Assembly (NCBI GenBank): GCA_022823775.1
Contig: JAJEHI010000188.1
Coordinates: 1 to 51,098 of the forward strand
Source: Defluviicoccus sp.
Lineage (GTDB): Bacteria > Pseudomonadota > Alphaproteobacteria > MPNO01
Direction: 5' to 3'
DNA length: 51,098 bases
The translations under genes were made by a program, and so were the position numbers. Positions 23,010-26,318 of this stretch are shown here, piece after piece. Each line of letters opens with the position of its first letter. The first letter of the stretch is position 1. The notes beneath the pieces are model-generated. The model made no database searches and had not been told where the DNA came from. It saw only the letters and a program-made list of their open reading frames with translations.

Positions 23010-24704
23010 ATGGCCAAGCCGCGAATAGCCCATCTCGCCGGCCCCAACGCGACGATCCAGAACACCCCGCCGCTGGTGACCTCGAACAAGGCGCGCCGCC
23101 TTCACGGCCTGCCCCTGCTCACCGACGGCGACGGCGCGCCGGCCCGTTTCGATGCGCTCCGGACCCAGCGCCTCGCGGCGCCGGCGACCGTCTATGTCGA
23201 GCAGTTCTCCGCCCATCCGCTGGAGCGCGACGCGGCGGAGCTTTACGCCCCGCCGGACGGCTATATCGACGCGGCGGGCGACTTCAGCGAGCGGCGCCGG
23301 AACCCCGACGACAAGCCGGTCTACCGCATCGAGCTCAAGCCGGAGGACGGGCTCTACCCCCTGCCCTACATGGCGCGCCAGGCCGACGGCGGCGCATGGG
23401 AAGACGACACGGCCCATCCCGGGGCGCCGGCGGAGCGGAGCCGCCAGGCCTATTTCCCCGACGGCTCCCGGCTGTTCGAGGAGGTCGACCGGCTCGGCGT
23501 CTCCATGGCGGGCCACGGCAGCATGATCTCGTCCCTCGCCGAGGTGGACTTCCACCGCATCGTGCCGTCGGGGGGCTACACCAAGGGCCTGCCCGAAAGC
23601 GAGCGCAGCGATATCGGCGAGGGCGACATCGCGCCTGAGGCGCTGGGCCGCGATTTCTTCCCCTACCGGCCGACCCATCTCGCCTCCGCCCCGCCGCGCC
23701 CGGCGCTTGCCGAGATCGCCAACCGGGTGCAGCGGATCCTGTCGACGGGCGACTATATCGGCGCGATCTGGAGCCAGGGCAGTCCCAGGATCGAGGAGAC
23801 GATCTACTGGCTGCAGCTCCTGCTCGACACGACGCTCCCGGTCTGCGGCAACGCGGCGCAGCGGACGATGGGCGAAATCTCCAACGACGGGCCCAAGAAC
23901 CTGCACGATTCGGTCCAGTACCTGACCTCTCGGGTCTGGGCCGACGCCGACGGACGCAACCGGGCGGGGATGGTGCTGATTCAGGAACAGCAGATCTTCT
24001 CGGCCCGCGACGTGCAGAAGGGCGACGCGCGCCCGGGCGGCTACGTGACCACCGGCGGGCATGGCGGGATTCTCGGCGGCATCCCGCACGACGCGCCGCC
24101 CGTGCTGACTTATTTGCCGGGTGTGCGTCACAGCCACGATTCCGCGGTGAACCTCACCCGCCTTCCGGACGATGTCGAAGGCTCGCTGGTCCGGAACGGG
24201 AGACGGGAAGCCGTCACGGTGACCGTCAAGGATCGGGAGGGCGCGCTACGCGGCTCGGCCATCCCCGGCGTTTCCATCGTCAAGGACGGAAACTACCACG
24301 CCGACAGCGCGGACCCGGACACCGGTCGCGAGGCCGACCTCAACGCGTCGATCGCCGACCGCCTCGCGAACGCGCCGCTCGCGGGTTTCGTCGTCGAGGG
24401 CCAGTCGCCCTATGGCAGCATGACCGCGCCGGACCGCCATCGGCTGATGCAGCGCGCGGCGTTCGGCGGCATGCCGGTCGCCCGGGTCGGGCGCGGCAAC
24501 AACGACGGCTTCACCGCCGGTACCGACATCTTCATCGGCGGCGGCAACCTCACCGCCACCAAGGCGCGGCTGCTTCTGATGGCCTGCATGATGAAATTCG
24601 GCGCGATGCCCGCGGCCGCCGATCCCGACGCCCCGACATCGGCCGAACGCGACGCCCTGGCGGCGAAGGTCGCGGAATATCAGGAGGTGTTCAAAACTCA
24701 CTGA
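23010..24704 (+). CDS. Asparaginase-domain protein, enlarged
   Basis: 564 aa, much longer than type I/II L-asparaginases (about 330). Recognisable asparaginase parts are scattered: an N-terminal LAGPNATIQNTPPL in place of the catalytic GTGGTIA loop, SPRIEETIYWLQLLL, the NDGPKNLHDSV segment (residues 292-302), and QIFSARDVQKGD (328-339). The first Thr of the canonical catalytic loop has Pro-Asn here, so the chemistry may differ. The extra length lies mainly between about residues 50 and 240. It is cytosolic. It is divergent from the isochorismatase/ThDP pair and probably part of the same amide or nitrogen pathway. A specific substrate cannot be given. Confidence 0.72.
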   Translation: MAKPRIAHLAGPNATIQNTPPLVTSNKARRLHGLPLLTDGDGAPARFDALRTQRLAAPATVYVEQFSAHPLERDAAELYAPPDGYIDAAGDFSERRRNPDDKPVYRIELKPEDGLYPLPYMARQADGGAWEDDTAHPGAPAERSRQAYFPDGSRLFEEVDRLGVSMAGHGSMISSLAEVDFHRIVPSGGYTKGLPESERSDIGEGDIAPEALGRDFFPYRPTHLASAPPRPALAEIANRVQRILSTGDYIGAIWSQGSPRIEETIYWLQLLLDTTLPVCGNAAQRTMGEISNDGPKNLHDSVQYLTSRVWADADGRNRAGMVLIQEQQIFSARDVQKGDARPGGYVTTGGHGGILGGIPHDAPPVLTYLPGVRHSHDSAVNLTRLPDDVEGSLVRNGRREAVTVTVKDREGALRGSAIPGVSIVKDGNYHADSADPDTGREADLNASIADRLANAPLAGFVVEGQSPYGSMTAPDRHRLMQRAAFGGMPVARVGRGNNDGFTAGTDIFIGGGNLTATKARLLLMACMMKFGAMPAAADPDAPTSAERDALAAKVAEYQEVFKTH

Positions 24705-24771
24705 GGCGCGTCCTTCGACAGGGGCTTGTGTCGATGACCTGACGGGGGAAGCGATGGCGCGGGGAGGGGGT

Positions 24772-24787
24772 GTCAACCATAGTTGAC
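24772..24787. promoter_or_regulatory. Inverted repeat of unknown role
   Basis: GTCAAC-CATA-GTTGAC is a perfect 6-bp inverted repeat with a 4-base spacer, about 200 bases from the parS sites. It has the size of a helix-turn-helix operator, but no promoter or regulator is visible nearby. Confidence 0.35.
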
Positions 24788-24964
24788 GGTCCGGCGACCC
24801 GGCCACGCCCGCGGGGCGCTCGCGACGGTTTTCCGAACCGGTCCCGCAGCAATCCCCGCCAACGCGCTGGCGCGGCGGGGAAACTCGCCGTCGGGTCCGC
24901 GCCGCCCGGCGCCCGGACCGAATGCACGGGGGAGCGGTTGCGTCCCCGGGGGACGCGAAAAATA

Positions 24965-24979
24965 GTCCCATATCGGGAC
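24965..24979. repeat. Small inverted repeat abutting parS
   Basis: GTCCC-ATATC-GGGAC lies two bases before the first parS palindrome. It could be an accessory site or a short hairpin. Confidence 0.35.
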
Positions 24980-24980
24980 A

Positions 24981-24998
24981 ATGTTTCACGTGAAACAT
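24981..24998. other. parS: parS centromere-like site 1
   Basis: TGTTTCACGTGAAACA (24982-24997) is an exact match to the chromosomal parS consensus bound by ParB, and the flanking A and T extend it to a perfect 18-bp palindrome. ParB loads here as a CTP-dependent clamp to organise and segregate the replication-origin region. No parA or parB gene is in the window. Confidence 0.9.
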
Positions 24999-25018
24999 AG
25001 GTCAACACTGCTGACCTT

Positions 25019-25034
25019 CGTTTCACGTGAAACA
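25019..25034. other. parS: parS centromere-like site 2
   Basis: CGTTTCACGTGAAACA retains the full 14-bp core GTTTCACGTGAAAC (25020-25033), with one mismatch at the outermost base. Its centre lies 37 bp from that of site 1, so the two form a closely spaced pair. Confidence 0.87.
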
Positions 25035-25118
25035 TCGGACGGCCCGGATCGGCGGCCGCGGCGGGACCGGACGCCGGAACAAGCCCGGGGCGTGTCCGAT
25101 AGGAATGCCGCCGGGCGG

Positions 25119-26318
25119 CTACTCGGCGGCCATCGCCCCACGCTCGGCGAGCGGGCCGAATCCGGTGCTCCTCGTCCCCAGATCCGCGATCTGCGGCAGC
25201 ACCTCCTTCGCGAGCAGGGTCATGCTCTTGGCCGTGGTCTTGTAGTCCATGTCGCCCGAATGGAGCATCGCGATCAGGTGGCCGAACCCGCCCACCTTGT
25301 CGTAGAGGGAGCGGATCTGTTCGACGACCGAATCGGGCGTGCCGTAGATCGCGACATGGTTCTCGCGGAAGTAGGAGACGCCCTTCCGGCGGATCGCGTC
25401 GGTCCGCCCGCCCGAATAGCGGCCGCTCAGGAAGTCGGCATAGAGCTTGCGGCTGTTGTAGCCGGGCGGCGCGCGGAACTGCGGCTCGGACTTGTTGTGG
25501 GTGACGTACCAGAACACCCCCTCGATGACCTTTTCGGCTTCCGCCTCGGTTTCGCCGACCGCGACCAGCGGCATGAAGGCGAACTGGTCGTCGGCGGGCT
25601 CGGGCAGCCCCTCGTCCCGGCAATATTTGCGGACGCCCTTGAACATCTTCGCGAGCCCGTCGACGGGGGTCAGGAACATCGCGAAGTTGTGGCCGCGCTC
25701 GACGGTCTTGCAGGCGTGGCCTAGGTCGCTGCCTCCGGTGGTCCAGACCGGCGGGTGCGGCTGCTGGTAGGGCCGCGGCCAGACATTCACCTGGCGCTTG
25801 TGGATCCACTTGCCCTCGTAGTTGAACGGCCCGTCATGGCTGGTCCAGGCGCGAATACAGAGATCGATGGTCTCCCACAGCCGTTCCTGGGTCTCGGTCG
25901 GGTTGGCGTTGGAGGCGAACAGCTCGTAGGGAACGCCGCGCACGAACCCGCAATCGAGCCTGCCGTATGAGATGTTGTCGATCATCGCCATCTCCTCGGC
26001 GCAGCGGATCGGATCGGCGAGATTGGCCGCCGGGTTGCCGAGGATGCAGAGCCGGGCGTTCCGGGTCTGCCGCGCGAGGACGGCGAGCGAGATCGGGCCG
26101 GCCGCGTTGAGACAGGTCGCGGTCTGGTGGTGCTCGTTGATCATGCAGTGCAGGCCGAGCTCGTCGGCCAGCAGGTACTGGTCGAGATACATGTTGTAGA
26201 GATCGGCCCCGATCTTCGGGTCGTAATGCCTGCTCGGCAGGCTCAGGCGCATCGAGGCGAAGGAATCGTCGGGCGGCAGATGCGGCCAGGGAAATTCGGT
26301 GAAGTGGTACAGTTCCAT
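25119..26318 (-). CDS. LLM-class flavin-dependent oxidoreductase
   Basis: 399-aa luciferase-like monooxygenase. Features: LGLHCMINEHHQTATCLN, LGNPAANLADPIRCAEEMAMID, GRLDCGFVRGVPYEL, and PPVWTTGGSDLG in the second half of the barrel. The enzyme should use FMNH2 and O2. It is directly downstream (4 bases) of an alpha/beta hydrolase on the same strand, so oxygenation and hydrolysis of one substrate is likely. It is one of three LLM enzymes in the 25-40 kb catabolic region and belongs to a different subgroup from the one at 38135. Confidence 0.9.
   Translation of the reverse strand: MELYHFTEFPWPHLPPDDSFASMRLSLPSRHYDPKIGADLYNMYLDQYLLADELGLHCMINEHHQTATCLNAAGPISLAVLARQTRNARLCILGNPAANLADPIRCAEEMAMIDNISYGRLDCGFVRGVPYELFASNANPTETQERLWETIDLCIRAWTSHDGPFNYEGKWIHKRQVNVWPRPYQQPHPPVWTTGGSDLGHACKTVERGHNFAMFLTPVDGLAKMFKGVRKYCRDEGLPEPADDQFAFMPLVAVGETEAEAEKVIEGVFWYVTHNKSEPQFRAPPGYNSRKLYADFLSGRYSGGRTDAIRRKGVSYFRENHVAIYGTPDSVVEQIRSLYDKVGGFGHLIAMLHSGDMDYKTTAKSMTLLAKEVLPQIADLGTRSTGFGPLAERGAMAAE

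Follow-up and report, generated by a model that had tools for sequence, protein, structure and literature searches.

A tight parS pair in Defluviicoccus sp. forms one end of a dispersed 264-bp repeat that probably multiplies ParB-loading sites

A review of chromosomal partition (ParABS) systems quotes 20-23 as the upper range of parS number per genome and asks why this number varies and what drives clustering (PMC7333895). It also argues that multiplication of parS is limited to ~600 kb, distant parS being harmful to the cell (PMC7333895; P. aeruginosa data, PMC5098823). A search of the available literature found no description of parS carried by repeats. The DNA analysed here (51,098 nucleotides, referred to as the window) is contig 51 of the genome of a wastewater bacterium of the genus Defluviicoccus (Alphaproteobacteria; G000; 4.8 Mb in 198 contigs, 67.6% GC) and carries a closely spaced pair of parS sites. 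This pair makes up the right end of a dispersed repeat of 264 bp, Defluviicoccus-specific and protein-free, which resembles a miniature inverted-repeat transposable element (MITE) and likely multiplies functional parS; the pair is real and probably functional, yet a repeat copy and probably not a landmark of the replication origin.

The first-pass annotation of the window described two intergenic parS sites between convergent genes and away from parAB, and a motif scan bears this out: parS 1 is an exact match to the 16-bp consensus, parS 2 differs at the outermost base only and retains the 14-bp core, their centres are 37 bp apart, and the chromosomal parB closest to them lies on a different contig. 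No further match with ≤3 mismatches was found elsewhere in the window, and shuffled versions of the window gave a mean of 0.02 matches, with two matches in 0/100 shuffles. BLAST of the window locus against sister species revealed a longer repeat, of which the pair is the terminal part; full copies, when aligned, are 264 bp long (some 254 bp) and run from TGTYAACCAYRGTTGACR to TGTTTCACGTGAAACA. Their interior holds hairpins, a GCGTCCCC/GGGGACGC stem and an arm of terminator-like form. Features of the locus are as follows.

24771-25034, unstranded: full-length dispersed repeat (type I), 264 bp, bearing the parS pair (BLAST, copy alignment)
24771-24788, unstranded: left terminus, 18-bp palindrome TGTCAACCATAGTTGACG (copy alignment)
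24941-25034, unstranded: portion retained in short copies (~95 bp), terminator-like arm plus parS-spacer-parS (copy comparison)
24956-24979, reverse strand: hairpin GTCCCGATATGGGAC resembling a terminator, with TATTTTT after it, oriented leftwards from the pair (folding)
24982-24997, unstranded: parS 1, exact 16-bp consensus TGTTTCACGTGAAACA (motif scan)
24998-25018, unstranded: palindromic spacer of 21 bp, TAGGTCAACACTGCTGACCTT (spacers of related sequence in each of the 16 pairs of G000 and in sister species)
25019-25034, unstranded: parS 2, CGTTTCACGTGAAACA, right terminus of the 264-bp repeat (motif scan, copy alignment)
23010-24704, forward strand: left neighbour, 564 aa, asparaginase-like domain (gene calls, Pfam)
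25119-26318, reverse strand: right neighbour, 399 aa, luciferase-like monooxygenase (gene calls, Pfam)

Scanning the whole assembly identified 35 exact parS 16-mers, 9 with one mismatch and 3 with two, where base composition predicts ~1e-4 exact matches and a reversed control pattern gave none. Sites with ≤1 mismatch number 44, compared with a median of 2 and a maximum of 12 in 66 other alphaproteobacterial families; units of this kind are found in ~25 places, distributed over at least 19 contigs. Scatter of the 16-mer around the chromosome, which the first-pass annotation had named as evidence against an origin mark, is therefore at least partly what is seen. All 16 pairs (two of them within a triple) are spaced at exactly 37 bp, always with a 21-bp spacer of the type AGGTCA-N7-TGACCT. 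Eight full-length type I copies are present in G000 and at least 10 in the sister species G002, the remaining copies being either 95-bp short forms or members of a second subfamily with a single parS and a different left part. The left module is seen only beside a parS pair (8/8 copies in G000, 10/10 full-length copies in G002). At one orthologous locus G002 has an additional 37-bp unit (spacer plus parS), and elsewhere orthologous loci switch between full and short form among species. The repeat is short and multicopy, and contains no gene. Near-identical copies of a single-parS form with its flank, at the ends of contigs C4 and C179 (L017:9376, L032:126), are probably strain variants or an assembly broken at the repeat.

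By the gene caller used in this analysis, 26 of the 28 groups of matches examined fall between genes (convergent in 8 cases, co-directional in 13, divergent in 4 and at a contig end in 1), and a frequent order is stop codon, parS, parS, terminator-like hairpin. Three repeat copies (L019:4125-5156, L023:5445-6452, L025:5613-6644) lie near genes for substrate-binding proteins of tripartite ATP-independent periplasmic (TRAP) transporters, possibly by chance, as the genome has many such genes. In the window, where genes were called after retraining for GC-rich DNA, the pair occupies a gene-free gap onto which the two neighbours converge. A catabolic region had been thought to begin beside it; however, Pfam assigns proteins of catabolic type on both sides (isochorismatase-like, asparaginase-like, luciferase-like, alpha/beta-hydrolase and amidohydrolase), and no boundary is visible.

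High site numbers are found in all the Defluviicoccus genomes analysed: the four others have 25, 63, 30 and 38 sites (14-bp core, ≤1 mismatch), and the named relatives among the contigs searched are Defluviicoccus metagenome-assembled genomes (MAGs). G005, from the other genus of the family (79% complete), has 2 sites, both on the parB contig. G055 and G185, which belong to another family, each have two sites, also on the parB contig, forming one 37-bp pair with a related spacer ~1.6 kb from parB. As outgroups have ~2 sites beside gidA/parB and Defluviicoccus 25-63, a tight pair near parB appears to be ancestral and the large number of sites specific to this genus. At the place matching the window locus, BLAST coordinates give 3 bp in G004 against 382 in the window, and 88 bp in G002 against 390, so the insert is absent from both; G001 carries other DNA (~3 kb) and in G003 the place is split between contigs. 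The window copy, missing from at least two sister species, has therefore probably been inserted recently. Judged by flanking sequence, some nine further loci are common to several species.

Spread by phage or plasmid was rejected, as viral contigs, phages and plasmids gave no match to the repeat. A contig of a 'Vicinamibacteria' MAG (L067:2660-2712) bears the Defluviicoccus repeat, matches contig C102 of G000 and is probably misbinned. A general 37-bp rule was also rejected: such pairs are known here from many phyla, but the spacers there are unrelated and the spacings mixed (26-47 bp); spacing alone therefore does not define a shared system. Tandem parS arrays with a 37-bp period (13 pairs; C5:85888-86088, C7:11122-11211; also L158-L167) are present in another alphaproteobacterium (G256, 1.8 Mb), where the spacers are unrelated to those of Defluviicoccus, and the Rhodospirillales MAG SI075_bin47 (L046) has six parS-like sites within 4.6 kb, five of them at 37-45 bp spacing.

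One protein of G000 scores above the ParB family cut-off (C103:15820-16761). It has ParB_N, HTH_ParB and ParB_C domains (Pfam) and a GERRWRAA motif, which is part of the cytidine triphosphate (CTP) site. Lack of a parB gene, the other finding that the first-pass annotation would have counted against its proposal, is thus not the case here. The native locus has the order PIN-domain gene, parS triple, gidA, single parS, rsmG, parA, parB, and spans contigs C3 and C103, whose abutment we infer from gene order in G004. Since this locus has the same 16-mer as the dispersed copies, ParB should recognise them too. Exact consensus, intact ParB, the native-locus 16-mer and strong conservation together make the original identification of the window sites as ParB-loading sites very probably correct, and the chromosomal ParB very probably loads on the dispersed copies.

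Conservation is concentrated in the parS arms. Between orthologous copies, parS differ at 1.9% of positions, the spacer at 15% and the flanks at 17-22%, a comparison in which parS divergence is pushed down by retrieval of the sister loci through exact pairs. Copies located through the left module, without use of parS, are free of this bias: in 18 of them (8 from G000, 10 from G002) the parS arms have 3 substitutions in 576 positions (~0.5%), and the left module itself has 79-92% identity to the window copy (8-21% diverged). The parS arms look to be under selection, and their conservation is taken as evidence for protein binding.

These observations suggest that a tight ancestral pair of parS, next to gidA-rsmG-parA-parB, was incorporated into a repeat, and that this repeat then multiplied, by its own copying or by being copied, into ~25 intergenic places, many of them at the 3' ends of genes. 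Each copy would be loaded by the single chromosomal ParB, sliding outward as CTP clamps, and the chromosome would have ~44 ParB nucleation points rather than the approximately two of relatives. Any benefit might be to the cell (additional ParB or SMC loading) or to the repeat. In its widest form, this reading has a mobile-like repeat capturing a parS pair and distributing functional ParB-loading sites across most of the chromosome, with a dispersed centromere of many sites as the outcome; this form is held only tentatively, as quite possible. Several points weigh against the repeat-borne reading. The palindromes at the two ends differ from each other apart from a shared TGT...ACA and are not convincing as terminal inverted repeats; inspection by eye of the regions flanking 14 full copies shows no target-site duplication; a search covering the RAYT type (REP-associated tyrosine transposase; REP, repetitive extragenic palindrome) only gave no transposase partner; the retrieval bias affects one of the two conservation estimates; ParB binding is deduced from sequence; and in this fragmented assembly the tightest conceivable contiguous arrangement of all sites is ~0.6 Mb.

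This last figure bears on a rather unlikely alternative, an ordinary enlarged origin-proximal cluster in which all copies, including that in the window, lie in ~0.6-1 Mb around oriC, where additional parS are tolerated. Sites are indeed present on contigs with gid-par (C3, where the copies are close to oriC/parAB), dnaN-gyrB (C75; genes identified by eye from sequence) and polA (C189), and on C102, which matches the parB-adjoining block of G011, a closed relative from the same order; loci are grouped at 2-5 kb on several contigs; and the site-bearing contigs (827 kb in total, 17% of the assembly) could just fit ~0.6 Mb, close to the extent of the zones in which P. aeruginosa and C. crescentus tolerate parS, ~600-650 kb (PMC5098823, PMC7333895). 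However, this fit requires all 19 contigs to be contiguous, uninterrupted by any site-free contig, and site-free contigs C35, C74 and C61 also map near the origin. The C97 site is within a block lying 1.88 Mb from parB in G011, almost opposite the origin; for C10 the mapped distance is 1.92 Mb. Overall, with half of the G011 chromosome sampled, blocks near sites lie 3, 27, 122, ~217, 444, 739, 1026, 1216, 1573, 1882 and 1920 kb from its parB, but gene order is scrambled and this mapping has little power, since adjoining blocks of a single G000 contig map to very different distances from parB in G011. Origin-near (37 prepared) and terminus-near (44) protein fragments of G011, used as shortened queries, both match site-bearing contigs. 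Sites near the origin are therefore present, and sites far from it probably also exist. The first-pass proposal that the pair marks the origin-proximal region is not supported, given a repeat unit at so many places and a window copy missing from sister species; the spread of surrounding genes all over the G011 chromosome points the same way without being decisive, given the scrambled order.

It is improbable that the repeat is retained for an RNA or terminator role at gene ends, with the parS-like sequence incidental and ParB binding a side effect. The pair is predicted to fold into a single long hairpin (z -9 to -10), with the terminator-like stem and T run after it, and 13 loci are ≤21 bp from a stop codon by the same gene calls, as would suit a terminator. 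However, 14/38 copies have a break at one position of the spacer stem while the parS arms barely vary, which argues that the parS sequence, rather than an RNA hairpin, is conserved. Single-parS copies retain the 16-mer too, and the invariant 16-mer is exactly the motif of the native par locus. Rfam has no matching family, the best hit (E 0.48) being far under the gathering score.

Noc-binding sites (NBS) are dispersed over chromosomes, but use of the present sites by another ParB-like or Noc-like protein is highly improbable, as the motif is parS itself and only one ParB-family protein of G000 passes the family cut-off.

The interest of a repeat multiplying parS is in its vehicle and copy number, which bear on how bacterial centromeres multiply and on the need for origin proximity. 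Outgroups with ~2 sites and one genus with 25-63 form a natural series with a concrete vehicle, the repeat, and both shared and species-specific insertions. Functional copies all over the chromosome would, if confirmed, break the rule limiting parS multiplication to ~600 kb around the origin; copies far from the origin would be a natural exception that might reveal how ParA, SMC and replication accommodate numerous loading sites, and copies confined near it would provide a natural map of the permissive zone at saturation.

Among known systems, the NBS of Firmicutes are likewise many dispersed sites for a ParB-like protein, but the sequence here is parS rather than NBS and no Noc-like paralogue was found in G000. 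REP elements and bacterial interspersed mosaic elements (BIME) associated with RAYT share extragenic palindromes, often by stop codons, and tandem expansion of units; RAYT-driven REP was rejected, as Y1_Tnp (PF01797) was found in 0/6 genomes, five of them Defluviicoccus. MITEs and other non-autonomous intergenic repeats resemble the present element in size (264 bp, with 95-bp short forms), absence of genes, multiple copies, intergenic location and filled or empty sites in sister species, but here terminal inverted repeats and target-site duplications are not clearly visible and a host centromere motif is the most conserved part. With chromosomal parS, the sites have in common the exact 16-bp consensus, intergenic position, paired clusters, a cognate ParB and native copies around gidA by parAB; they differ in number (~44, compared with 20-23; PMC7333895), in being carried on a dispersed repeat, in their fixed 37-bp pairing across a palindromic spacer and, probably, in extending beyond the origin region.
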